This document shows, piece by piece, positions 8,547-34,747 of a stretch of 35,656 nt of DNA (its first letter is position 1; the number at the start of each line of letters is the position of its first letter). The translations under genes were made by a program, and so were the position numbers. Origin of the DNA: an uncultured Treponema sp. (lineage in GTDB: Bacteria; Spirochaetota; Spirochaetia; Treponematales; Treponemataceae); the NCBI GenBank assembly GCA_945915085.1, contig CAMEET010000013.1, positions 1 through 35,656 on the forward strand, in the 5' to 3' direction. The notes under the pieces were generated by a model that did no database searches, had not been told where the DNA came from, and saw only the letters and a list, made by a program, of their open reading frames with translations.

Positions 8547-10280
8547 TTAATCACGGATAGAATCAATATTTGCCTTTCCACCAGGAACAAACGGCAAAAC
8601 AGATTCTTCAGGATTTACACTGATGCGAACAAAACAAGGTTTATTTTCTCTAGCTGCATCAAATGCTTTGAGATACCAGTTTTCATCGCTATCAGCATCA
8701 ATAGCTTCGATTCCAAAACCTTTTGCAATCTGGAGCAAATCTGGAGATTTTCCAAAAACTGAAGCACTGTAATTTTTATCAAAAAGGAATTTTTGCTGCT
8801 GATAAACCATTCCCAAAGTTCCGTTTTCAAAAACAATTACTGTCACAGGAAGATTCAATTCAGCTAGAGTAGCGAATTCCTGAACATTCATCATAATGGA
8901 ACCGTCACCACTGAAACAAACAATTCTACTTTCTGGATTTGCCAGCGAAGCGCCGATAGCCGCAGGAAGGCCAAATCCCATAGTTCCAAGTGAACCAGAA
9001 GTCAAAAAAGAACGAGGTCTTTCAACAGGATAAAACTGTGCTGCCCACATCTGATGCTGACCAACATCTGTTGTGATAATAAGATTTTCGGCAGGAATAC
9101 CAGCTTTTTCTGCAAGCTTTGGAATATTTTGAATAATTTCGCGTGGATTTGCAAGTTTTTCACCTTTCGGACGACCACATTCCAGCGAAATATTTTTGTT
9201 TTTCAATTCGATAATAGACTTGAGCCAGTTTTGGTCTGCAGAATTTTTCTTTTCTGATACAAGTTCAGCTAAAACCGGGAAAACAGATTCAACATCAGCA
9301 ACTATCGAAATATTTGAATTCATAATTTTATCAACTTCGGCAGCATCAATATCAATATGAATGATTTTTGCATTTGGACAGAATTTTGAAACAACGCCAG
9401 TTGCTCTGTCATCAAAACGAACACCAGCCGCAATCACTAAATCGCTGTCGTGAATTGCAACATTTGCAGCATGATTTCCGTGCATACCAAGCATTCCAAT
9501 AAAATTTTCACAAGAATTTGGAACTGCTCCCAATCCCATCAAACTAAAAACTGCAGGAATTGAATAATTTTCTAAGAATTTTTTTATTTCTTTTGATGCT
9601 TTTGGAGAGTTGCAGCCGCCGCCACAATACAAAACTGGTTTTTGCGAATTCTTCAAAAGTTCAACGATTTCAAGACATTTTTTTGCAAGTTCTTCTTTTG
9701 TAGAATGATATTTTACAGAAACTTTGCATTGCTTTTCATTTTCAATCATTTTTGCAAAAAAATCATCAGGGATTTCACAACAGGCAAGTTGAACATCACG
9801 TGGAACATCAATCAAAACAGGTCCCGGTCTTCCTTGAGTAGCAATGCGGAAAGCATCTGGAATTGCAGTCAGAAGTTCTTCTGGAGATTTTACCATAACA
9901 GAATGTTTTGTGATTGGAAACGAAAGTCCAAAAGTGTCAGCCTCCTGAAAAGCATCAGTTCCAATCAAAGAAGTGTTAACCTGCCCTGTAATCGCAATGA
10001 TTGGAACTGAGTCTGCACGGGCATCAGCAATAGCTGTCAAAAGATTCATAGCACCAGGTCCGGATGTTGCCATACAAACTGCAATATTTCCAGTAGAACG
10101 CGTAATTCCCTGCGCTATAAAACCTGCTGCCTGTTCCTGACGCACAAGGACGTGTTTAATTGTAGATTTATTCAGTTCATCATAAAGCGGCAAAATTGAA
10201 CCACCAGGAATGCCGGCAACCATCTCAATACCGAACGCTTTCAAAGCTTCTACAATAATTTGTGCACCAGAAATTTTCAT
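8547..10280 (-). CDS. ilvB: Acetolactate synthase large (catalytic) subunit
   Basis: IlvB joins two pyruvates, or pyruvate and 2-oxobutyrate, in the first common step of valine, leucine and isoleucine synthesis, using ThDP, Mg and FAD. The 577-residue chain has the family order. These are VAGIPGGSILPLYDEL, then RQEQAAGFIAQG with the catalytic Glu49, ATSGPGAMNLLT, GRPGPVLIDVPRD, a middle FAD domain with LGMLGMHG, and the ThDP motif SGDGSIMMNVQEFATL closing with ENGTLGMVYQQQ. A TTG two codons upstream is possible, but the ATG at 10280 has GAGG seven bases before it, so I start there. Upstream lies a complete attenuator (10308-10447). No small regulatory subunit (ilvN) follows; the next gene is convergent. 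The gene is therefore monocistronic, and feedback control must use a subunit encoded elsewhere or be absent. Confidence 0.96.
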   Translation of the reverse strand: MKISGAQIIVEALKAFGIEMVAGIPGGSILPLYDELNKSTIKHVLVRQEQAAGFIAQGITRSTGNIAVCMATSGPGAMNLLTAIADARADSVPIIAITGQVNTSLIGTDAFQEADTFGLSFPITKHSVMVKSPEELLTAIPDAFRIATQGRPGPVLIDVPRDVQLACCEIPDDFFAKMIENEKQCKVSVKYHSTKEELAKKCLEIVELLKNSQKPVLYCGGGCNSPKASKEIKKFLENYSIPAVFSLMGLGAVPNSCENFIGMLGMHGNHAANVAIHDSDLVIAAGVRFDDRATGVVSKFCPNAKIIHIDIDAAEVDKIMNSNISIVADVESVFPVLAELVSEKKNSADQNWLKSIIELKNKNISLECGRPKGEKLANPREIIQNIPKLAEKAGIPAENLIITTDVGQHQMWAAQFYPVERPRSFLTSGSLGTMGFGLPAAIGASLANPESRIVCFSGDGSIMMNVQEFATLAELNLPVTVIVFENGTLGMVYQQQKFLFDKNYSASVFGKSPDLLQIAKGFGIEAIDADSDENWYLKAFDAARENKPCFVRISVNPEESVLPFVPGGKANIDSIRD

Positions 10281-10307: not shown

Positions 10308-10339
10308 AAAAAAAAAGCCCTCCGATTTCCCGGAGAGCC
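10308..10339 (-). terminator. Rho-independent attenuator terminator of ilvB
   Basis: On the minus strand an 8-bp stem pairs GCTCTCCG (10331-10338) with CGGAGGGC (10317-10324), including one G-U pair. The loop has six bases and nine T residues follow directly (10308-10316). It lies between the leader peptide and the ilvB ribosome binding site, so it must be bypassed for ilvB to be transcribed. Its 5' arm can instead pair with an upstream segment. Confidence 0.9.
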
Positions 10340-10402
10340 TAAATCTATATCATGCTTTAATCATAAGATATAACATTCACTCTTCGGGTATCAATCTACC
10401 GA
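10329..10402 (-). promoter_or_regulatory. Antiterminator and leader hairpin of the ilvB attenuator
   Basis: Segment 2, CCCGAAGAG (10380-10388), pairs with CTCTCCGGG (10329-10337) at eight of nine positions, which uses up the 5' arm of the terminator. The same segment 2 can instead close a leader hairpin: TCGGTA (10397-10402) with TACCCGA (10384-10390), one bulged C, and a six-base loop GATTGA holding the leader-peptide stop codon. These are the mutually exclusive 1:2, 2:3 and 3:4 pairings of classical amino-acid attenuation. A ribosome stalled on Val/Leu codons would leave segment 2 free to form the antiterminator. Confidence 0.8.
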
Positions 10403-10447
10403 TAGGACGAGAACAGTTACAACTTTGACTAAAGACAAAAAATGCAT
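10391..10447 (-). CDS. ilvB leader peptide (Val/Leu-rich, 18 residues)
   Basis: The translated frame is MHFLSLVKVVTVLVLSVD, then TGA. Six of 18 residues are Val and four are Leu, clustered just before the RNA segment that controls termination. This is what is seen in branched-chain amino-acid leader peptides (ilvL, ivbL, leuL in enterobacteria). The last codons overlap the 5' arm of the 1:2 hairpin and the stop codon lies in its loop. A ribosome that finishes translation would therefore mask segment 2 and favour termination, while one starved of Val-tRNA or Leu-tRNA would stall upstream. The ATG lies only 7 nt after the -10 box, so the mRNA should begin at or within about two bases of it. No Shine-Dalgarno site is possible. 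The peptide itself is unlikely to have another function. Confidence 0.85.
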   Translation of the reverse strand: MHFLSLVKVVTVLVLSVD

Positions 10448-10454
10448 ATAACAA

Positions 10455-10483
10455 ATTATGAAGATTTTTGATAATTTTGTCAA
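10455..10483 (-). promoter_or_regulatory. Strong sigma-70-type promoter of the ilvB leader
   Basis: On the minus strand a perfect TTGACA (10478-10483), a 17-bp spacer and CATAAT (10455-10460) form the best promoter in the window. Transcription should start close to 10447-10449, at the leader peptide ATG. A near-consensus promoter suits a gene regulated mainly after initiation. Confidence 0.9.
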
Positions 10484-10517: not shown

Positions 10518-11207
10518 TTACTCTCCATAAGCATCATAAGATTTTTTGGAATCATAAACGCCAGAACGATATTCACCTGTAATACTAGGAATTTTCATTT
10601 TCATTCCAGGCAAAATAAGGTTTGGATCTTCTGGCTTTGGCATTTCATTTTTATTTGCCTGATACAAATTTTCCCACAACAAAGGATTATTATAGATGTA
10701 AGGACGACCAGAAATATTCCAATAACAGTCTTTTGTTTCAGCCCATGGCTTTACAATATAATACTCTGGAAGCGGAGTAACTTCACGAATTCCATCCAAC
10801 GAGGCAATACAAGCTTTTGCATAATCTGTCGCCTGCGGATAATCTTCAGATTCAAAAGAACTTTCCGCATTTGTAAGATTTTCTATTGCAGCTGAATAAG
10901 CCATTGGAAATGTGTTTGGTGCATTGATTTTTTCGGCATAAGCAACTTGATTTTTTGCCAGCTTGATATTATCTTCTGCAGTTTTTCTTTCCATCATAAG
11001 TGCAATATATGCTTTTGAAAGAGCGGCATTTTCTTCAGCTTTTTTTGAATATTCAACAGCATCATCATATTGTCCTGCATCCAAAGCTATTTCTGCTTTT
11101 TTTGTATATTCATCGGCAAGTTTTTGATAAGTATTATTTTTATAACTGATTGCAAAAAGAGAAAGTGAAAACAATGTTACAAATAAAATTGATAAACTTT
11201 TTTTCAT
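10518..11207 (-). CDS. Exported LysM-domain protein with helical repeats
   Basis: The 229-residue product starts with a signal peptide (MKKSLSILFVTLFSLSLFA, cleavage near residue 19). Residues about 25-140 are Ala-rich helices in tandem (LADEYTKKAEIALDAGQYDDAVEYSKKA written in two TPR-like turns, and YPQATDYAKACIAS), probably TPR-like or coiled coil. From about 148 the chain switches to a LysM-type module: YYIVKPWAETKDCYWNIS, LLWENLYQANK, and LILPGMKMKIPS. LysM modules bind peptidoglycan, so the protein probably sits in the periplasm on the cell wall. It begins 2 bp after the stop of the acidic-tailed lipoprotein, so the two form an operon, and both combine a signal with helical repeats. Their exact role is unknown. 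Confidence 0.85.
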   Translation of the reverse strand: MKKSLSILFVTLFSLSLFAISYKNNTYQKLADEYTKKAEIALDAGQYDDAVEYSKKAEENAALSKAYIALMMERKTAEDNIKLAKNQVAYAEKINAPNTFPMAYSAAIENLTNAESSFESEDYPQATDYAKACIASLDGIREVTPLPEYYIVKPWAETKDCYWNISGRPYIYNNPLLWENLYQANKNEMPKPEDPNLILPGMKMKIPSITGEYRSGVYDSKKSYDAYGE

Positions 11208-23329: not shown

Positions 23330-26300
23330 TTAATCTTCACCACGGAGGAAGTCGACAGCATACATATCGGAATTAAAACCTACTGCAACTGGAGATTTTT
23401 TCGATGCTCCTTTTGTTTCTTTAACATTTGACATTACCGAGGTTCTTTGGTCTCCGGCTGTATAATAAGCAGGATCTGTAATTGCTTCAAATGATAAACT
23501 TCCATCAACTTCATCATCAAGATATGCAACTTTAATACCACTTGTAGTACCAAGATAACTTGTATCGATGTAAGAAATTACTGGCTTTATTGCTTTTAAA
23601 CTTGTTCCTTCTGGATCTGTTAATTCTATATCAGTCCACCTTCCAGCTCCATTAGAAGCATCAACTGCAACACTGTTAGTAACAGAATAACTAGAGCCAG
23701 ATTTTGTAAGATACAAATAATAAAGTTTAGCATTATCTGCATCTTGAGCCGCAACGTGTAAATTACCATTTTTATCCATAGCAGCACTTACATAACGTCC
23801 AAAATCTGCAGCAACTCCATTTGGTCTTATGCTAGTAGTTTTTGTCCACTCAGCTGTTGCTTGTGGGAAAGAATTATTACCATACGCAACTTCAAGCGAT
23901 TTATTTGTTTTATTATAGTAAACAATTACTGGACGAGGCTCTGCACTTGATGTTGTATCAACAAATATATCACTCCATTCTCCTGCAATTTCTGTATAAG
24001 TCGGATTATTGCTTGTAGTTTCATTACCTGCAATAACAGTTGCACCATCAGTCATGTGGTCAAAATCTTTTTGAGCCGGTTGATTTGAATTTGCAGGGTT
24101 AGCATTTCCTTTCTTTCTATTTGGAGAAGAAGTCATTTCTGCTACTATATCAATATTGTCTGACATATCAATTTTTCCCCAGTCTTTCAAATCAGAAGTA
24201 ACAAGTTTACTATCATTAGATGCAAAACGATGTCCTGCTCTAAATCCTGCATATTTCAAGCATTTTGCATATGAGTCATAATAACTAACATAAATATAAT
24301 CTACACCGTTTACAGATTTTCCACCATTTGCACTAGAATAGAGTAAGCTATCATTTTCATTATACCAACCTGCAATTCTTGGATTTTTAAATTGATATAA
24401 GATGCTGTCATAACCTGTAGAAGAATCTCTTTTGTGAGAAGCTGTATTATATCCTTGACGTTCAATAAAGAAAGGAAGTTTTTCTTCTTCAATTGTATTA
24501 CCTTTATAAGGATTAAAGTATTCTCTATCATACCAAATTCCTTCTCGAATCAAACATAATCCTAATCCCCAGACACTGCCAGAATCTCCTCCTAATCCGT
24601 TATCTTGAATTACATAATAAGGAGTTCCATTAATAATTGTATAATCCATTTCATCTACAGGGGCTACATAAGCTACTTCGGAAGAAGCAAAACCAATATT
24701 ATCTCCATGACCAGTGTACGATTTTCCACTAACATATCCATACAACTTCAAATCATCTGATGAAATAGCTGCATAGAAACTGTCATTCATACTTGTTACT
24801 GGATCTACAGCCTTATCTTGTCCATTTTGTTTATAAAGATATCCACCACCAGGTCCTTGAGCTACCATGCTACCATCAACAGTAGAAGGAGAACCTGAAC
24901 CACTATTATATTTATCTATTTTCTTTATTGCTCCGCTATGAGGATTTATACTTCCCGGGAATAAAGTTGAAGTTGCTACGCTCCAAACACTAATATATCT
25001 GTCGTCAGTCCAGAAATTTGTACCGGCTGAGGCGGCTTTAGCTGCTCCTAAATCGGTGTCTTTTGCAATGTAACCTGCTTCGATGTTGTAGCCACCGTTT
25101 GTGTTAGAGTTATTTTTTGTTGAAACGGCAGTTCCATCTGTTGGAGTTACAACTACTTCTACCCAGCGTGAATATTGTGGAGCTGTTACTCTAATTTTTC
25201 CATCAGAAACAAACGTAGCATTTTCAGTTGAATCTGCTGCTGTATTTTCAGGAATCTTTCCATTAATTAACTTGTTAGATTTATAGAACTTAACTTTATA
25301 TGTAGCTCCGCTTGCAAAGTTCATACCTTCAATTATCATGTTAGCACCGGCACGAACTGGGAATTTTCCTAAACGAGAACGGTTTGCATAACCAATATCC
25401 TCTGAATAAATACTCTTTATGTATGGTACAAAGTCCATTATATATGTTGGAGTTCTTGTAACATTATTTATTGTGTATTCTGTATTAAAATTAGACATCT
25501 CATTATTCTGAGAATCTTTTGCCTTAACAATAACAGATTTATCTTTATCTAGTCCATAAGGAGTCATATCAATACGGAAGCGCCATTTTACTGTGTGTCC
25601 GCTTTGTCTAATTCCAAAGTCTTCTAGAATTTCAAAAGATTTCCAGTTATCTGGCCTACCATCTATTACTGTTGACCATATTCCATCCTTATAACTTGCA
25701 ACCTTTTTTTCTGTTCCATCTGGAGCTGTAATCAAAAGTTCACCAAGTCTTGTGTCGTCCCATGCATATCCTTCAATATAAACTTCACCACTTACACCAG
25801 GGTTGTCTGTAGAGTTTTCTGCAGGAATATCAATGTGTCCAAGAGGATTTCCGTCATCATCATATACAAATGAACTATCTTCCTTACTGTTCCAATAGAA
25901 CGGTTTTATGCTTGCCGTAGGTTTTGTATCATCTACAACATTTATGATAAGCGGCATTTTTAGCAAGGCATAACAACTGTCTTTACCAGGTGTCGTTTCT
26001 TCTGTAGAATCCCAGAAAGTTGCCGCAAGATATATTGTCGATTTTTTAGCAGAAGTCCAACTTTCATAACCTTCCAGCACTCCATTTGTTATTTCAAATT
26101 CTTTTGACTGGCTTGAATCAAAATTCACTTTTGTGCCTTCTTTATTCACAATCTTCGAAGCCTCTGCAAATTTTTTTGTTGATTTCCATTCACCTTCAGA
26201 AATAGTTTTTATTCCGGCATTTGCCAAATTATCAACAATCTGATAAGTATAAGACAATTCACCGTTTCCACCTGTAAATTCTGGAACTACAAGAAGATTA

Positions 26301-29300
26301 TTTTTAGCAACAAACGGATCTCGTCCAGCAGGCAAAGTGACTGTTGCAATATTTGAACCTTCGCCTTTGTTATTTAAAGTTGAATAGAACGCAAATTCAC
26401 CATATTCCGTACCGTTTGCAGTTGCACCTTCTGACATGTCATTTATAGGTCCAGTTGAATCAGAATAATATTCATACTTTCCATTTCCATTCAAATCTGT
26501 TGCGAGCATCACTCTTGTAAGACGAGGCGCATTATTCTGCACACTTGCTTCATATGATGTACCAGTTACATTTCCAGCTTTATCAAACGCGATAATCACA
26601 AGTTTTCCAGGTCCATCAGGAATATAATTTGAATGGAAAGTTGCATCATAAGTCCATGTATTCAAACTCTTGATGATTGATTCTGCCATGCCATCGCCAT
26701 CATCACCAGAACCTTCGAATAAGTCGCCATTTGCATCAGTTTTTTCTGAACCTGTATTATCTATTACTTGAGCATAAGCAAAGAAAACTTTTTGCGAACC
26801 AGTATCTGGAGCATCGGATTTTAAAGTGACTGTTGTTCCGTCATTTTCGATTTTTTCGATTGTCAGCCATGTTCCATTGATTTCAACAACGCCACCAGCA
26901 CGAATATGTTTATTTTTTTCAATATTGAAAGTGCGTTTATCTGAATTGATAGTAACACTCTGCTCAGTTCCATAAACAACTTGTCCGCCAAGATTTCTTG
27001 ATTTTATTGATGACTCGTCGATATTAATTCTTCCAGCATCTTTGTTAGAAGAATCTGTGCTGTCAATCATCACATCGTAAATTCTATTCTGCGTTTTTCC
27101 TTCACGATAATAATAAAAGAGTACTTTATCAAATCCAGAACCGCCGTCATCTTTCACAGAACCACCAAGCGTAAAATACGTTCCGTTGCTGTTCACAATT
27201 TTTTTATCAGAATCAGAATATTTTACGCCGTTCAAAGTGATGTCATTAATCTGCGGAGCCGAATTATCAAAATTCACGCTGAATTTTTCGTAAGCAGTTG
27301 TTTCCGTGTCAGAATTTTTCATTGCCACCACTTTCACAAATTTAGTTCCGCTTGAATTTTTATCCTCTGTCAAAGGAATTTCAAGAATATAACCTTTTGT
27401 ACCGCCAGTAAATGTTTGTTCTGCCTCTGACAAGTCGCATTTTTTTCCTGCCGCAGTTGCAAGTCCTTCTTCCGTAGTGGCAATATAATACATCACTTGT
27501 TTGATTCCATTTATATCTTCCACAGAAATTTCAAGATTTGCCTTTCCCTTTACATACATATCAGTTACATAAGATTTTGTCGCCGTAACATAATTATTGT
27601 CATCATATTCTTTGATATTTTTTGCCTGTTTTCCAATTGTTGGAATATTGTTATCGATAATCACAAATTGAGTATCTGACCATTTTCCAAATTTGTAATT
27701 ATTGTCAACTGCCACAGCACGAATATTGATTTTGTACTGACCTTCTTTATCATCACTTTTGTTGGATTCTGCCATCATTTCGCCATATTGATTCACAGTC
27801 AAATTCCAGCTGTTTGTGCCGTTTGCCTTAATTCCCCAGAATCCTTCATCACCAATAGCTGAAAGATCGGCATTTATTGCTTCGCCAGTTTTATACTCTG
27901 TATCAGTGATGATTTGATAAATCTGATTTTCATTGTCTTTCAATTCTGACAGCAAAGGTATATCATCCTCTGTAAAATATCCATCTTTATTCATATCAAT
28001 CTGAACAAAAACTTCTTTAACAGAAACGTTATCCTGCGCTGAACCTGTAATTCTGATAGAGCCGTTTACATTTGCTTCACTTCCTTCTGTTCCAATAGGG
28101 AAAGTTACATCAGCTTGAGGTCTGTCTCCAAATGGATTGTATTTAAAATCAAAACCGTTTACAGATTCGTTACCAAGATCATCTTTTGCATAGATATAAA
28201 CTCGCATTGTTAAAATATCTTTTTCATCACGAGGGACTTTGGAATAATCTTCCAAAGTTGTTTCATCGTAAGGAAGAAGAGGATTTTTCTTTTCGTCTAC
28301 CTGTACAAGACCATCAAGAGTGAATTTCCATGTGTTATTCGATCCTGAATTGAAACATTTATATCCCTCTTTTGTGATTTCAGTTCTCACCAAATCCGAA
28401 ACATTTGATTTCAAAGTTCCCTTTCCATCTTCACCGTCATAATAATTATTATTCAAAACGAGATAACGAACATCAGTCACAGCTGAATATTCATCGTTTG
28501 CAGTTCCAGACAAAGTGATGATTCCAGTCTGGACATCTTTTTCATCGTTACTTGGAGTGATAAGCGTTGCAGCAGGTGCGCCATTGTCTATTATTATCTG
28601 TTTTGTAGATGTGTTTGTATGTCCAGCTTTATCCTGCACAGTAAAAGTCAATGTGTGATTTCCTTGAGTCCATCCGTTTTCACCACCCACTTCAAATGCT
28701 TCTGAGCGGTACCTACCTGTTGTTCCATCAACAAGTGTGAGAGAACCAGTTTCGGTATTTTCTGACGTTGTAGAATAATCCACTTTTACAGATAATATTC
28801 CACTTCCGTTTGTACCACCGTCATTCGCTTCTACTTCAAAGACAACAAATTTACCTCTGTTTCCGCCAGCTTTACTTGAAGATTTAAGCTCTTTTCTTAC
28901 TTTTGAAAAATCACTTTCTTTATCTTCTCCGATTCCAAAATAGAAAGCATCAAAATCAGGAACAGCCGTATCTTTATGGAATTTGATGGCACTTGAATTA
29001 TCACTCATCTCATCATTAGAATCAGAATATTTTATATAAGGCTGGTAAATTTGATTAGCACCAGTAGTAAACTCGCCGCCCTGAGTATCAATAATCTTCA
29101 AATATAAAAATTTTTTTCCATCAGCTCCAAGAGGAATAGTTCCCGAACCTGAACTTAATGTAACTGTTTGAGCCGATGACCAATCTCCATGCTCATCGAA
29201 TGTGAATTTTACTTCTTTAATTCCGTCATCATCTTCCACAGAAATATTGAGATTATTTGAAGTGACATAACAATTTTCATCGCTTCCACTTAAATTATTG

Positions 29301-32300
29301 ATTTTGACAATCGGGCGGTCACTGTTCAAATCTATTTGTACTTTTGTCAATTGATTTTCTTGAACGATCGTGTCCGCTGTCAATTTAGCTGCACCGCTTA
29401 TACTGCAGTTTCCAGCCACGTCATAAGCTACAGGCAAAAGATAAACAGTAGATGAAGTTTCTCTTTCTGAAAGTAATTCATTCACATTGATTCCTGTAAA
29501 TTTCCATGCAGTAATATCGCTCATAGAAACGTCACTAGAGTCAGTATCTTTCGAACATGATGAAATCAGAGAAAAACCATCAAAATAACCCGGACAATTC
29601 TCACCTTTCGCATAATAAATCTGAATGCTCTTCACATCATTTGAATCGTTTACTTTTCCACTAAATGTTACTTTGCCATTCAGTTTGGCTTCTGCTGATG
29701 GCATTTCAATCAGCGTTTCTGGTGCTTCTGTGTCTACGAGGAAGTTCACTGCAACAGTGTTTCCTGCATTTCCTGCATAATCTTTTATCGAGATTACTGC
29801 TGATTTTGTACCGTCCCTTTCAGTCAGATTTTCTGCTTCAATTTTTGCAATCCACACTCCGCCTTTTGGTCCACTTCCATCAGTTCCTTTTTCAAATCCT
29901 GTTTTCTTGTCTGCAGGAATTTCCCATTTTCCTTCTTCATTCTTTGAATATACTTTTGCAGGGATCTGTTTTTCACCAATTTTTACACAAATTTCACTTA
30001 CTCCAGATTGTCGGCTGTCTCCGTTTTTATCTTCAAATCCGCCTGCAAGCTCAATTGCTTTTGTTTTGTTCGTTAAAATTGAATTGTTATATTTTTTCCA
30101 TCCGCTGTTTCCAGAAGCCTCGCCATTTTCCTCAACAAAACGATACCAGACTGCACTTGTTTCAGAATTTTGTTCCTGCGGAGCTGCTGTTTTAGTGAGT
30201 TTTGGTGCTGTCATATCAATATTAATTTTAGGCATTGGCAAAACATTAGCTTTGTTTCCAGCCTTATCTGACACTGTAAGTTTCAGACTGTTTGCACCGC
30301 TGCCTTCTGTTTCTTCATCAAAGCCACTGATTATAGATTCAAATGTTTCCTTATTTCCGATGTCTGTCGTGTAAATAGTTCCTCTCAGATTTCCAAGATT
30401 TCCGCCTTTGTTCAGTTCATAATCAATTTTATTTACGCCACTACCTTCCTCTGTTACTGTTCCAGAAAGTTTCAAAGTATCAGTTTTGTACCATTTTTCT
30501 GCTATCTGAGAATATTCTACATCTCCAAGCTTGATTTCAGACGCATTGATTTGTGGTGCTGTTTTATCAAGAATAAAGTTATAGCTCCATTCTGTCGACT
30601 CCCCGAAAATGTTTGTCGCAGTGACTGTTCTTGTCACATATTTATTTTCATAATCTGCAAGTTTTTCATCAGCAACTGCTTCTATCGTGATTTTTCCACT
30701 GCCATCTGGCATACAACTTCCAGAAGAAAGAATCTCTGCTACCACATCAGTTGCAGTTTCATCTTTTTTATACTCATCTTTCCAAGTCACACTTTCAAGT
30801 TTATTATTTGTGCCAGAACATGACACCGTAGCACTCGTTGAAATTGCACCAGTTATGTATTCATAAGATTTTCCCTCTTTTTCAGTTTTGTATGCGCCGT
30901 CTGCTATACCTGAATTTTTTGATGAAATAACAGGAGCAATATTGTCAATTAAAATTGGAGAAGAAACAGCTTTATTTCCAGCATCATCAATCACTTCGAT
31001 AGTGTAACTATTCTTACCAACTGGAACATTTTTCAAACTAATAGAAACTTCATATTTCTTACCGCCTGCCGCATTTTCTTCAATCGATGCAGTTCCATTT
31101 TCAACAACATTTCCATTGTTTTCCAAATTCTTCTTTTCATTCAAAATGATTGGTTCACATTCCACAATACTGCCATTATTATAAACAGCCACACAATTAT
31201 CTTTTTTCAACAAAACATTTTCAGATATATCAGCAGAAATTTTTGTTAAATCTTTTCCAGGTTCTACATTAACATTAGAAATAACAGGTGGTTTACTGTC
31301 TATCGTTACATAAATGCAACATGAATTATTATCTTTAATTTTTGACACATTTCCAGCAGCATCTTTTGCAGCCAAATAAATCAAATACGTCTTTCCGTCA
31401 ATAGAATTTCCACTTCCGGAATTCTCAGAATTCTGATTAGAATCCAATTCAGACTTAAAGTTAATACTGATATTCCAATTTCCATTATAACCATTATTAT
31501 CAGTAGGAGTTATTCTTCCAGTTTTCCATTTTGTACTATCGTTGATATTATATGAACTTCCATTTGTTTCAGGTTTTTCTCCATTAGCCTCAGCAATATA
31601 ATAGTAGATATTTCCGCCATTAAATCCAGAAACACCATCATCATCTGCATTTTCAATATCAGAAACAGTACCTTCAATTACATAATAACTCGAAGAATCC
31701 GCAGTTCCATAAGTTTTCAAACCGCCAACCGCTGTTAAAACATCTTCAGTTACACTCTCACCTTTCACTTTTGTAATTTTAAAAGTAGGAGGTACAGGAT
31801 CATAATTAAAACTGAAAATTTTTAACGTTTCCTGATTATAATCATCAACCGCTTTATAACAATATTCATATTTTTTTGAAGTTCCCGCGTTTTCACCTTC
31901 GACAGTTAGTTTTACTTCATCAGTCCATTTTCCGCCACTATGAGAAATAGGTGTTCCATCACCGGTACATTCTTTGTTATCAAACCTTGTAATCGTTGCA
32001 GTTTCATCATCAATAGTACCTTCAACAGTAAATGAAGAAGTCATAAATCCATCACTGGCAGTTTTAATTTCAAGTTTTGGAGCACCATCATCTACAGCAA
32101 TAAGGAAAGGTCCCACTTTTGTTTTATTAAATTTACATTTCTCAGGTGCAGAACTATCATAAAAAATATCTTCCACTTCAATTTCAATCAGATAAGTTCC
32201 CTGAGATTGAGGCATTTTTGCTTTCAAACTGAATGTAGTCTTTCCATCAGGTTTTGTATCCAAAATGATAGGAGTCCAGACATCATCTAAAATAATATTT

Positions 32301-34663
32301 TCCTTATCAAGTTTAATATTTTTATATCGTACAACAACATTTTTTATACCATCATCATCTGAAATTGAACCAAGCATAATATTATTTGAAGAAGTTCCAA
32401 AAACTGTACGATATTCGGACTTCTTAGCATTTTCATATTCATTCCTTCCCCAGTTATCATCATACAAAATCACATTCTTATCTTCAGAATTTCCACATTC
32501 AGTATTAGAAAGAACAATTTGAGGAGCATCAGTACTTTGGTCAATATTCAAAATTATAACAGAATTAGAATCTTTTCCGCTGTAAGCCACATTTCCATGA
32601 GAATCCATAGCTTTTAGCAGAATTTGTTTACTTGAACCATCAGCAAATTGAGTAGTATCAATAGAAAACTTCAGATTTCCTGCAGTCGAACCACTGTCAC
32701 CACTTTTCCATTCAGGCTCTTTTCCATCCACAAACTCACCAGTTGAATACCATGATTCCTTAACCTTCTTATTATCCGAAATCAATTCAGAAATATTCAC
32801 AATACCATTAACTTTATAAACCTGCTCATTAGTATAAACCAAAGGTGTAATTGAAGGTTCAGAATCAAAAACAGGAGGATAAATATCATTATCAACAGAA
32901 ATCTCTTTAGATGAAACCAGATTACTGTCATCAAAAGCTACAATATAAATAGTATAAGATTCATCAGTAATTTTTGGAGAAATACATTTGAAATTATAGA
33001 ATTTTAATGAAGGAGTAGTTTCTTTTACATTCAAATAAAGTCCACTTGAAACAGAAGCGATTTCTTCTTCAGAATTAATCGATTTTTCATTAACCAAAAG
33101 TTCCACATTCAAATAATTCTCATCAGGTTTATTTTCATTGTAAGAATTTTTATACAATCTTATTTTACTCATCTTTGAAGGAGTCTTCACAGTACCAGTA
33201 ATCTCAAATTCCTTACTTGAAGCAATCTGCACAGAAGAACCAGGCGATTTTACAGTCACAATAGGAGCAACATTTGTCGAAGTAATCTTCACACCATAAT
33301 TACTGTCATTCCTAATACCCACACCTGCCGCATCAGAAGCAACCACTTCCACCAGATAATAACCGCCAACAGAAAGCCCATCAATCTGTTCAACATTCAA
33401 AGATTTCGAAACCCAAGTACAAGATGACGAGAACAATTCAAACTTAGAAGTCAGCGTTGCCTTATCAGTAACACTACCATCCGCAGCAATAGAACCTGGT
33501 TCCAAAATCGTAATCTTTTTGCTATTAGATTGCACTTTACCATTTCTATCACACGGAACCAGATAAACACCAATAGACTGCGGTAAAATAGCATTTTTAT
33601 CCCTTCCCACATAAACATTTACAGTCAAAGAATTTTTATTCATCAAACCATAACTATCCACTTCCAGATCAGGATTGTCCCCAAGAGATTCATAACCCTG
33701 CAACTGGAAATAAGGATTATTTACAGGATTTAAAGAGAAAGTCAGTTTATCAACTTTTTTAGAATTTAAAGCATCCGCCAATTCAGGATAACTATCAGCC
33801 GAAACACCACCATTCAGAATACTATAAGCAATAGAAGGTTTATAACCAGAAATCAAAGACAAATCGTTACTCAAATAAATCGTATTAGTAGAATTACCTC
33901 TATCACCTTCCACAGCAGGAACCTGTCTTGCATCATCAAAAACCTCAAGCCCCAAATAATAATTTTTAGTACCAGCTTCTTTATCTTCACCATAAATCTC
34001 TTTATAGAAACTTTCACCATCTTCCAGCCATTCAGCAACAATAAAATCAATAGAAGTAGAAATTCCACTAAAAGATTTTCTGGCAATCTCCACATGTTTG
34101 TCATCATAAATTACAGCATCAATAGCATCTATAGTACCGCCATTCACTTCATCAGCACCACGCCCAATAATAGAAAACTTTTGACCATAAGACATAGGAG
34201 TTGAAATAGAAACAGTAGAAGGAGAATCAATAACCACAAAAGGAGCAGTATTATCAACCGTAATAACAGTAGAAACAGAAGACGAATGATTATAAGTATC
34301 CGTAGCAGTAATCAAAATAGAATAAGTACCATCAGGAATTTTTACAGAAACAGGATCTACAGAACATTCCCACAACCCGCTGGTCTTATCATCCGCTTTA
34401 GAATAAAAAAGAATTGCATTATAAGGACCAAATTGTACTTTTTCATCATTAGTTTTCTTAAAAAGAACAGAAACTTCTTTAACTTCAAGGTCATCGTTCC
34501 ATTCACCAGAAAAAGTGATGGTCTTTCGAGTACGAGCATTTTCATTAGGCGATAAAAGTGAAACAGAAGGCGGTTCAACATCAACTTGTGCCCCTAAACC
34601 AATCTCACAGGAAGAAAAAATAACAAAAACAATAAAACATAACAATACAAATACTTTCTTCAT
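23330..34663 (-). CDS. Giant lipoprotein (3777 residues) with many Ig-like repeats, probable surface adhesin
   Basis: One uninterrupted frame encodes a protein of roughly 400 kDa. The ATG at 34663 has AAAGG seven bases upstream and opens a lipoprotein signal with lipobox FSSC (Cys19). A longer open frame to 34729 is not used, because it reaches the -10 box. From about residue 30 to 3050 the chain is a series of beta-sandwich-like modules. They end in linkers of the type VDNTAPFVV, LIDNIAPVIS, ILDKTAPQIN and NFDNSAPQIN; at least 15 such D-x-x-x-P joints are visible. Each module has an 'A-x-D-x-x-G-N' strand such as AKDAAGNVSKI or VQDKAGHTNT. About 3080-3190 resembles an IPT/TIG module. The last 550 residues repeat PVIVYYN/PVISYID strands and look like a beta-propeller. 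No catalytic motif was recognised. It probably extends from the outer surface for adhesion or polysaccharide contact. Confidence 0.9.
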   Translation of the reverse strand: MKKVFVLLCFIVFVIFSSCEIGLGAQVDVEPPSVSLLSPNENARTRKTITFSGEWNDDLEVKEVSVLFKKTNDEKVQFGPYNAILFYSKADDKTSGLWECSVDPVSVKIPDGTYSILITATDTYNHSSSVSTVITVDNTAPFVVIDSPSTVSISTPMSYGQKFSIIGRGADEVNGGTIDAIDAVIYDDKHVEIARKSFSGISTSIDFIVAEWLEDGESFYKEIYGEDKEAGTKNYYLGLEVFDDARQVPAVEGDRGNSTNTIYLSNDLSLISGYKPSIAYSILNGGVSADSYPELADALNSKKVDKLTFSLNPVNNPYFQLQGYESLGDNPDLEVDSYGLMNKNSLTVNVYVGRDKNAILPQSIGVYLVPCDRNGKVQSNSKKITILEPGSIAADGSVTDKATLTSKFELFSSSCTWVSKSLNVEQIDGLSVGGYYLVEVVASDAAGVGIRNDSNYGVKITSTNVAPIVTVKSPGSSVQIASSKEFEITGTVKTPSKMSKIRLYKNSYNENKPDENYLNVELLVNEKSINSEEEIASVSSGLYLNVKETTPSLKFYNFKCISPKITDESYTIYIVAFDDSNLVSSKEISVDNDIYPPVFDSEPSITPLVYTNEQVYKVNGIVNISELISDNKKVKESWYSTGEFVDGKEPEWKSGDSGSTAGNLKFSIDTTQFADGSSKQILLKAMDSHGNVAYSGKDSNSVIILNIDQSTDAPQIVLSNTECGNSEDKNVILYDDNWGRNEYENAKKSEYRTVFGTSSNNIMLGSISDDDGIKNVVVRYKNIKLDKENIILDDVWTPIILDTKPDGKTTFSLKAKMPQSQGTYLIEIEVEDIFYDSSAPEKCKFNKTKVGPFLIAVDDGAPKLEIKTASDGFMTSSFTVEGTIDDETATITRFDNKECTGDGTPISHSGGKWTDEVKLTVEGENAGTSKKYEYCYKAVDDYNQETLKIFSFNYDPVPPTFKITKVKGESVTEDVLTAVGGLKTYGTADSSSYYVIEGTVSDIENADDDGVSGFNGGNIYYYIAEANGEKPETNGSSYNINDSTKWKTGRITPTDNNGYNGNWNISINFKSELDSNQNSENSGSGNSIDGKTYLIYLAAKDAAGNVSKIKDNNSCCIYVTIDSKPPVISNVNVEPGKDLTKISADISENVLLKKDNCVAVYNNGSIVECEPIILNEKKNLENNGNVVENGTASIEENAAGGKKYEVSISLKNVPVGKNSYTIEVIDDAGNKAVSSPILIDNIAPVISSKNSGIADGAYKTEKEGKSYEYITGAISTSATVSCSGTNNKLESVTWKDEYKKDETATDVVAEILSSGSCMPDGSGKITIEAVADEKLADYENKYVTRTVTATNIFGESTEWSYNFILDKTAPQINASEIKLGDVEYSQIAEKWYKTDTLKLSGTVTEEGSGVNKIDYELNKGGNLGNLRGTIYTTDIGNKETFESIISGFDEETEGSGANSLKLTVSDKAGNKANVLPMPKINIDMTAPKLTKTAAPQEQNSETSAVWYRFVEENGEASGNSGWKKYNNSILTNKTKAIELAGGFEDKNGDSRQSGVSEICVKIGEKQIPAKVYSKNEEGKWEIPADKKTGFEKGTDGSGPKGGVWIAKIEAENLTERDGTKSAVISIKDYAGNAGNTVAVNFLVDTEAPETLIEMPSAEAKLNGKVTFSGKVNDSNDVKSIQIYYAKGENCPGYFDGFSLISSCSKDTDSSDVSMSDITAWKFTGINVNELLSERETSSTVYLLPVAYDVAGNCSISGAAKLTADTIVQENQLTKVQIDLNSDRPIVKINNLSGSDENCYVTSNNLNISVEDDDGIKEVKFTFDEHGDWSSAQTVTLSSGSGTIPLGADGKKFLYLKIIDTQGGEFTTGANQIYQPYIKYSDSNDEMSDNSSAIKFHKDTAVPDFDAFYFGIGEDKESDFSKVRKELKSSSKAGGNRGKFVVFEVEANDGGTNGSGILSVKVDYSTTSENTETGSLTLVDGTTGRYRSEAFEVGGENGWTQGNHTLTFTVQDKAGHTNTSTKQIIIDNGAPAATLITPSNDEKDVQTGIITLSGTANDEYSAVTDVRYLVLNNNYYDGEDGKGTLKSNVSDLVRTEITKEGYKCFNSGSNNTWKFTLDGLVQVDEKKNPLLPYDETTLEDYSKVPRDEKDILTMRVYIYAKDDLGNESVNGFDFKYNPFGDRPQADVTFPIGTEGSEANVNGSIRITGSAQDNVSVKEVFVQIDMNKDGYFTEDDIPLLSELKDNENQIYQIITDTEYKTGEAINADLSAIGDEGFWGIKANGTNSWNLTVNQYGEMMAESNKSDDKEGQYKINIRAVAVDNNYKFGKWSDTQFVIIDNNIPTIGKQAKNIKEYDDNNYVTATKSYVTDMYVKGKANLEISVEDINGIKQVMYYIATTEEGLATAAGKKCDLSEAEQTFTGGTKGYILEIPLTEDKNSSGTKFVKVVAMKNSDTETTAYEKFSVNFDNSAPQINDITLNGVKYSDSDKKIVNSNGTYFTLGGSVKDDGGSGFDKVLFYYYREGKTQNRIYDVMIDSTDSSNKDAGRINIDESSIKSRNLGGQVVYGTEQSVTINSDKRTFNIEKNKHIRAGGVVEINGTWLTIEKIENDGTTVTLKSDAPDTGSQKVFFAYAQVIDNTGSEKTDANGDLFEGSGDDGDGMAESIIKSLNTWTYDATFHSNYIPDGPGKLVIIAFDKAGNVTGTSYEASVQNNAPRLTRVMLATDLNGNGKYEYYSDSTGPINDMSEGATANGTEYGEFAFYSTLNNKGEGSNIATVTLPAGRDPFVAKNNLLVVPEFTGGNGELSYTYQIVDNLANAGIKTISEGEWKSTKKFAEASKIVNKEGTKVNFDSSQSKEFEITNGVLEGYESWTSAKKSTIYLAATFWDSTEETTPGKDSCYALLKMPLIINVVDDTKPTASIKPFYWNSKEDSSFVYDDDGNPLGHIDIPAENSTDNPGVSGEVYIEGYAWDDTRLGELLITAPDGTEKKVASYKDGIWSTVIDGRPDNWKSFEILEDFGIRQSGHTVKWRFRIDMTPYGLDKDKSVIVKAKDSQNNEMSNFNTEYTINNVTRTPTYIMDFVPYIKSIYSEDIGYANRSRLGKFPVRAGANMIIEGMNFASGATYKVKFYKSNKLINGKIPENTAADSTENATFVSDGKIRVTAPQYSRWVEVVVTPTDGTAVSTKNNSNTNGGYNIEAGYIAKDTDLGAAKAASAGTNFWTDDRYISVWSVATSTLFPGSINPHSGAIKKIDKYNSGSGSPSTVDGSMVAQGPGGGYLYKQNGQDKAVDPVTSMNDSFYAAISSDDLKLYGYVSGKSYTGHGDNIGFASSEVAYVAPVDEMDYTIINGTPYYVIQDNGLGGDSGSVWGLGLCLIREGIWYDREYFNPYKGNTIEEEKLPFFIERQGYNTASHKRDSSTGYDSILYQFKNPRIAGWYNENDSLLYSSANGGKSVNGVDYIYVSYYDSYAKCLKYAGFRAGHRFASNDSKLVTSDLKDWGKIDMSDNIDIVAEMTSSPNRKKGNANPANSNQPAQKDFDHMTDGATVIAGNETTSNNPTYTEIAGEWSDIFVDTTSSAEPRPVIVYYNKTNKSLEVAYGNNSFPQATAEWTKTTSIRPNGVAADFGRYVSAAMDKNGNLHVAAQDADNAKLYYLYLTKSGSSYSVTNSVAVDASNGAGRWTDIELTDPEGTSLKAIKPVISYIDTSYLGTTSGIKVAYLDDEVDGSLSFEAITDPAYYTAGDQRTSVMSNVKETKGASKKSPVAVGFNSDMYAVDFLRGED

Positions 34664-34719
34664 AATAATACCTTTCATTAAGATTTTTTTTAGAAACACA
34701 GAATAAGTATCATTTTTAA

Positions 34720-34747
34720 AGTGTACCACAGAAATAGAAATTTACAA
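34720..34747 (-). promoter_or_regulatory. Candidate promoter of the giant lipoprotein gene
   Basis: On the minus strand TTGTAA (34742-34747), a 16-bp spacer and TACACT (34720-34725) lie 56 nt before the ATG at 34663. This leaves a leader of about 50 nt with a normal ribosome binding site. Confidence 0.5.

Follow-up and report, generated by a model that had tools for sequence, protein, structure and literature searches.

A probable ribosome-mediated attenuator with an apparently leaderless leader ORF upstream of ilvB in Treponema, and related leaders in other spirochaetes

What controls ilvB, the gene for the acetohydroxyacid (acetolactate) synthase (AHAS) large subunit, in Treponema? The question is raised by a short element found immediately upstream of the gene in an uncultured Treponema sp., within the 35,656-nt stretch of DNA analysed here (the window). 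The original prediction, made from the letters alone, proposed a leader-peptide attenuator in a spirochaete-like genome. The genome assignment holds: the closest named relatives of IlvB, 94% identical, come from an uncultured Treponema and a Spirochaetia MAG. The gene itself is of the biosynthetic, E. coli AHAS I-like type, scoring 642 bits against TIGR00118 (cut-off 538) with PRK08155 as its top NCBIfam match, and the best PDB match of its product is 6lpi (E. coli AHAS I), the closest solved relative. It is a single gene with a convergent downstream neighbour, and the only AHAS found in its own genome, which is 90% complete. The gene upstream of the element (10518-11207) lies on the same strand.

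The element occupies the minus strand from 10483 to 10308, its 3' end falling 27 nt short of the ilvB ATG at 10280. Its parts, and the gene, are as follows.

10478..10483, minus strand: -35 box TTGACA of the leader promoter; 6/6 TTGACA in 39 of 48 family leaders
10455..10460, minus strand: -10 box CATAAT, separated from the -35 box by a 17-nt spacer; the spacing puts the predicted transcription start on the leader ATG at 10447 or no more than about 2 nt away from it
10391..10447, minus strand: leader ORF MHFLSLVKVVTVLVLSVD, 18 codons plus TGA (ATG at 10447, TGA ending at 10391)
about 10353..10437, minus strand: long 1:2 hairpin, supported by covariation, formed by most of the leader ORF with the RNA 3' of its stop
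10385..10402, minus strand: apical part of the 1:2 hairpin (TCGGTA...TACCCGA), with the stop codon in its loop; helix 4, pair types GC, AU, UA and CG
10380..10388, minus strand: segment 2, CCCGAAGAG, antiterminator strand whose partner is segment 3
10329..10337, minus strand: segment 3, CTCTCCGGG, antiterminator strand or 5' arm of the terminator
10308..10340, minus strand: intrinsic terminator, a GC stem-loop (10340-10315) and T9 (10316-10308); helix 5, 99.4% of cells paired
8547..10280, minus strand: ilvB

The promoter had been described as near consensus, and TTGACA-17-CATAAT does match the consensus at 11 of 12 positions. The leader peptide was likewise recovered with its 18 residues, six of them Val (codons 7, 9, 10, 12, 14 and 17) and four Leu (codons 4, 6, 13 and 15). 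Against the amino-acid frequencies of the window, the probability of at least 6 Val among 17 residues is 2.6e-4, and that of at least 10 Val plus Leu is 1.9e-5. The terminator sits between the leader ORF and ilvB, as expected of a ribosome-mediated attenuator, and is the sole one in the region, where shuffles expect 0.1. The leader RNA folds at -40.3 kcal/mol, compared with -27.9 for shuffles (z -3.4).

ilvB or a related AHAS was found in 170 of 195 family genomes, and named Treponema such as T. bryantii and T. berlinense have one as well. The same leader architecture lies upstream of many of these ilvB genes, and T. bryantii carries the element (L037/L060); in many family members ilvB has no detectable leader. 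About 48 distinct Treponema-family leaders keep the frame and the Val codons. In all 25 of the closest homologues the frame is kept and Leu6, Val7, Leu13 and Val14 are invariant as residues, while the third positions of the Val codons vary (GTC/GTT/GTA/GTG). Val makes up 32% of leader residues across 38 leaders. The original prediction had staked itself in advance on homologues conserving the leader frame and stems, and in related Treponema the leader is still located before ilvB, with its frame, Val codons and all three pairings retained. Identity is 74% in the leader ORF but 28% in the 60 nt that precede the -35 box, which ties the element to ilvB rather than to the upstream neighbour. One genome has its leader on one contig and ilvB on another, each at a contig end, as expected if the contig was broken there.

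Within its own genome the covariance model finds one strong site, the window element (76.5 bits; the next scores 27 bits). The weak R1 matches there (27 bits or less) were judged false, as was an R1 match of 44 bits (G146) that overlaps a gene with a signal peptide. A search for similar leaders at the ilvC, ilvD and trpE loci gave nothing convincing, these loci having no such leader of their own; the sole match at an ilvD locus (L185) is an ilvB leader already counted as L054. Also common in the phylum is a second AHAS paralogue (most of L256-L276), with about 40-45% identity; its loci show no comparable leader.

CTC at leader codon 13 is invariant and GTC prevails at codons 7 and 14; in the window genes, GTC provides 7% of Val codons and CTC 5% of Leu codons. 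The leader ORF (10391-10447) is enriched in the genome-rare codons GTC, CTC and CTA. Both tRNA-Val genes among the first 30 tRNAs listed for the genome have the anticodon UAC, and a lack of tRNA-Val(GAC) might account for the rare GUC control codons. Rare control codons would sharpen stalling; the same bases are also paired, and pairing may be the cause instead.

Where does translation of the leader begin? Of 48 leaders, 41 have their ATG 35-37 nt from the -35 box, and in 42 a gap of 6-8 nt separates the end of the -10 box from the ATG; in the window the ATG lies 7 nt past the -10 box, which is the predicted transcription start. Because of these spacings, transcription is expected to start at the leader ATG. 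The mean Shine-Dalgarno energy is -0.9 kcal/mol at the leader as against -7.4 at ilvB. Promoter spacing and the absent Shine-Dalgarno sequence agree with a Treponema-group leader ORF that is very probably leaderless. The same attenuation might instead operate with a short 5' UTR made from a start site further upstream, as the leaders of other spirochaete classes, which have a 5' UTR, and a few Treponema-family leaders with larger spacing (40 nt in L022, 60 nt in L252) could suggest; the narrow spacing of the great majority and the weak Shine-Dalgarno energy make this improbable. Leaderless attenuators have precedents. Transcription of ilvBNC in C. glutamicum is reported to start one nucleotide from the start codon, without a ribosome-binding site (according to the accounts in PMC11857589, citing Morbach 2000, and PMC10272879), and in Sinorhizobium meliloti the leader ATG forms the 5' end of the trpL RNA (PMC7298713).

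The leader RNA is structured. Thirty-eight leaders folded singly gave z-scores of -3.0 to -9.0, and nearly all of them formed one long hairpin and then the terminator, the 5' strand of the hairpin being most of the ORF and its 3' strand the RNA past the stop. Covariation was counted on 39 leaders aligned by the covariance model. On this alignment (A3), which was fitted to the structure and so inflates pairing, both-sided changes occur in 23 of 31 pairs (12.0 expected from shuffles) and in 102 cells (28.6 in shuffles), and the covariation score is 0.350 compared with 0.179, a value reached by none of 500 shuffles; the single-sequence folds are the more independent evidence. Covariation falls sharply when pairing partners are slid. 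A MAFFT alignment (A1) with RNAalifold recovered the terminator only, the 3' strand of the long hairpin being misaligned, and was replaced by the single-sequence folds and the covariance model. Conserved Val codons overlap paired bases, and coding and pairing constraints are therefore only partly separable.

Within the Treponema group covariation supports the 1:2 and 3:4 pairings, and covariation for 2:3 comes from other spirochaete classes. Segment 3 finds its best partner within the leader just past the stop in most cases, with modest single p-values, and only 14 of 38 Treponema-group leaders have a 2:3 duplex that beats shuffles at p <= 0.05. The three mutually exclusive pairings and the nine-T terminator could all be located in the order originally proposed, and the folds and covariation agree with them. 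The hairpin running the length of the ORF goes beyond that proposal, as do the apparently leaderless start and the related leaders in other classes described below.

A structured, conserved RNA followed by a terminator before a branched-chain amino acid (BCAA) gene might also be a ligand-binding riboswitch, for ppGpp, an amino acid or another ligand, with the ORF incidental. ppGpp riboswitches control BCAA genes elsewhere, and an ilvB motif of Leptospira was first filed, in 2021, as a weak riboswitch candidate (PMC8632094). Against this, neither the window nor 22 homologous loci contain an Rfam family at its gathering score, and relaxed thresholds gave nothing either (the best weak match in the window is Phe_leader, 23.7 bits against a gathering score of 55). 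Conservation is strongest for the ORF, for its Val codons and for the unvarying position of the ORF relative to the promoter; we regard a riboswitch as very unlikely. A promoter and a constitutive terminator, for example that of the upstream gene on the same strand, with a Val-rich ORF by chance, would suit the moderate single-sequence statistics but is barely credible for an element that is conserved and stays with ilvB while the sequence upstream is unconserved, whose stems covary and whose promoter is located between the upstream gene and the terminator.

Competition between the pairings was modelled by removing the RNA to 12 nt beyond the A-site codon, as a ribosome would cover it, and folding the remainder as transcribed to the terminator loop. 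With the ribosome at the Val codons, 35-38 of the 38 leaders form the 2:3 helix (9-11 bp on average), compared with 10 of 38 with the ribosome at the stop and 8 of 38 in free RNA. In a codon scan of the 25 close homologues the antiterminator forms in 100% with any codon from -12 to -2 in the A site, in 48% with codon -1 and in 12% with the stop. The energy of 2:3 in these homologues is -18.1 kcal/mol, against -8.7 with shuffled interior; since the shuffled-interior control has 7 bp or more in 49%, pair count alone says little, and the argument rests on energy and on the contrast between stall and stop. E. coli ivbL and trpL, used as positive controls, lose 2:3 at the stop, as expected. For the window leader alone, 2:3 also forms in free RNA that lacks segment 4. 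The logic expected from the model is that a stall would lead to read-through and a ribosome at the stop to termination, and that termination would also follow when no ribosome is present.

From its anatomy, its conservation and the competition of its pairings in silico, a ribosome-mediated (classical) transcription attenuator in all likelihood controls ilvB; leader translation, termination and the response to amino acids would then proceed as follows. Transcription would begin on the leader ATG or beside it, yielding a leaderless RNA 5' end on which a ribosome would initiate. When Val-tRNA, and perhaps also Leu-tRNA, is scarce, the ribosome would stall on the Val/Leu codons and mask the 5' side of the long 1:2 hairpin, allowing segment 2, just past the stop, to pair with segment 3. 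This pairing would block the terminator, and ilvB would be transcribed. With charged tRNAs, the ribosome would reach the stop and cover segment 2, so that 3:4 pairing forms and the polymerase terminates in the nine-T tract. If the leader is not translated, segment 2 would stay hidden in the long 1:2 hairpin, making termination the default.

How does this compare with known systems? The original prediction invoked the logic of enterobacterial ilv/leu attenuation; attenuation as such is supported, but the nearest systems are the Val-type AHAS I leaders (E. coli ivbL/ilvBN) and C. glutamicum ilvBNC, not ilvGMEDA or leu. E. coli ivbL is likewise a Val-rich leader before an AHAS I-type ilvB (45% identical) and showed the same stall/stop behaviour when simulated. 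It differs in that its segment 2 lies within the end of the ORF, whereas that of the window follows the stop. E. coli ivbL has a 5' UTR. The C. glutamicum ilvBNC attenuator (ilvB-II motif; leader MTIIRLVVVTARRLP) also combines a Val-rich leader before ilvB with three hairpins, and attenuation there is reported to need the leader Val codons (as described in PMC11857589, citing Morbach 2000, and in PMC10272879). It belongs to another phylum, with a different sequence and leader peptide, and its ilvB heads ilvBNC whereas that of Treponema stands alone; the likeness implies no claim of homology. S. meliloti trpL differs in being a Trp leader of trpE(G) in Alphaproteobacteria, with reported trans functions of its peptide (PMC7298713).

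The statement that such attenuation has hardly been reported in spirochaetes also holds, with one qualification. The Leptospira ilvB motif (WRC-14-1), also spirochaetal and also before ilvB, was proposed in 2023 to be a Val-rich uORF in which three or more Val codons follow one another (PMC10272879); it comprises seven Leptospira sequences only, with little covariation support reported (PMC8632094, PMC10272879), and is likened here by description. No paper in the searched open-access literature brought Treponema, transcription attenuation and a leader peptide together, most subscription papers lying outside the search. Val-rich-leader attenuation of ilvB is thus already known in E. coli and Corynebacterium and suggested in Leptospira; what the sequences appear to add is leaderless initiation in the Treponema group and a phylum-wide spread.

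In other spirochaete classes, Val-rich leaders such as MNRQLNTSLILVNLAVLVVVVVCKHTYRSVP, with long antiterminators, precede the same ilvB clade (L277-L286, L238, L239, L241-L248). They often end in ...YRFTP/YRFAP and are related to, yet unlike, the Treponema form. Most have a 5' UTR, and several have a Shine-Dalgarno-like stretch when judged by eye. In them, segment 2 extends over the final codons and the stop, and its partner is segment 3 together with the terminator loop, giving a duplex of -19 to -35 kcal/mol. In ten of these leaders the antiterminator is 18 bp long, with 88% of cells paired and 4 pairs changed on both sides. A model built from these ten (R2) matches the Treponema leaders L010 and L007 at 44 and 35 bits, and the window at only 15 bits.

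Among E. coli leaders R2 ranks ivbL first (39 bits), followed by ilvL (28 bits) and hisL (20 bits). The other-class leaders and ivbL have CCGTAGGG and CCGGYGCAAACCGG blocks in common; ivbL (L350:3285-3489) has CCGTAGGG where its ORF ends and CCGGCGCAAACCGG in its terminator, similar to CCGTAGGG and CCGGTGCAAACCGG of the other-class leaders. Shared ancestry of these leaders with ivbL is suggestive only, because R2 also matches ilvL and hisL. It is possible, though doubtful, that the Val-leader attenuator is an old module travelling with AHAS I-type ilvB across phyla (Spirochaetota and Gammaproteobacteria at least), and that in the Treponema lineage its ORF gave up Shine-Dalgarno initiation for a leaderless start, with the rare codons GUC and CUC as control codons. 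Whether the leader is inherited with the AHAS I ilvB between phyla is the question that this raises. Spirochaetota, a phylum in which little is known of amino-acid gene control, gains a well-supported attenuator family unrecognised by Rfam models. Its dozens of natural, apparently leaderless leader ORFs, with 5'-UTR relatives in the same phylum, make the effect of leaderless initiation on transcription-translation coupling testable by comparison.

Some further observations concern the pathway and the window. The AHAS small subunit model TIGR00119 has no match in the genome of the window, compared with 36 of the 39 genus genomes searched; assembly incompleteness may explain this. The model leuA_bact (TIGR00973) matches 0 of 30 genus genomes at E <= 1e-100, and ilvC and ilvD are common; leucine in the genus may depend on a different enzyme type or on uptake. 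Elsewhere in the window, the minus strand carries a single open frame of 3799 codons at 23330-34729.
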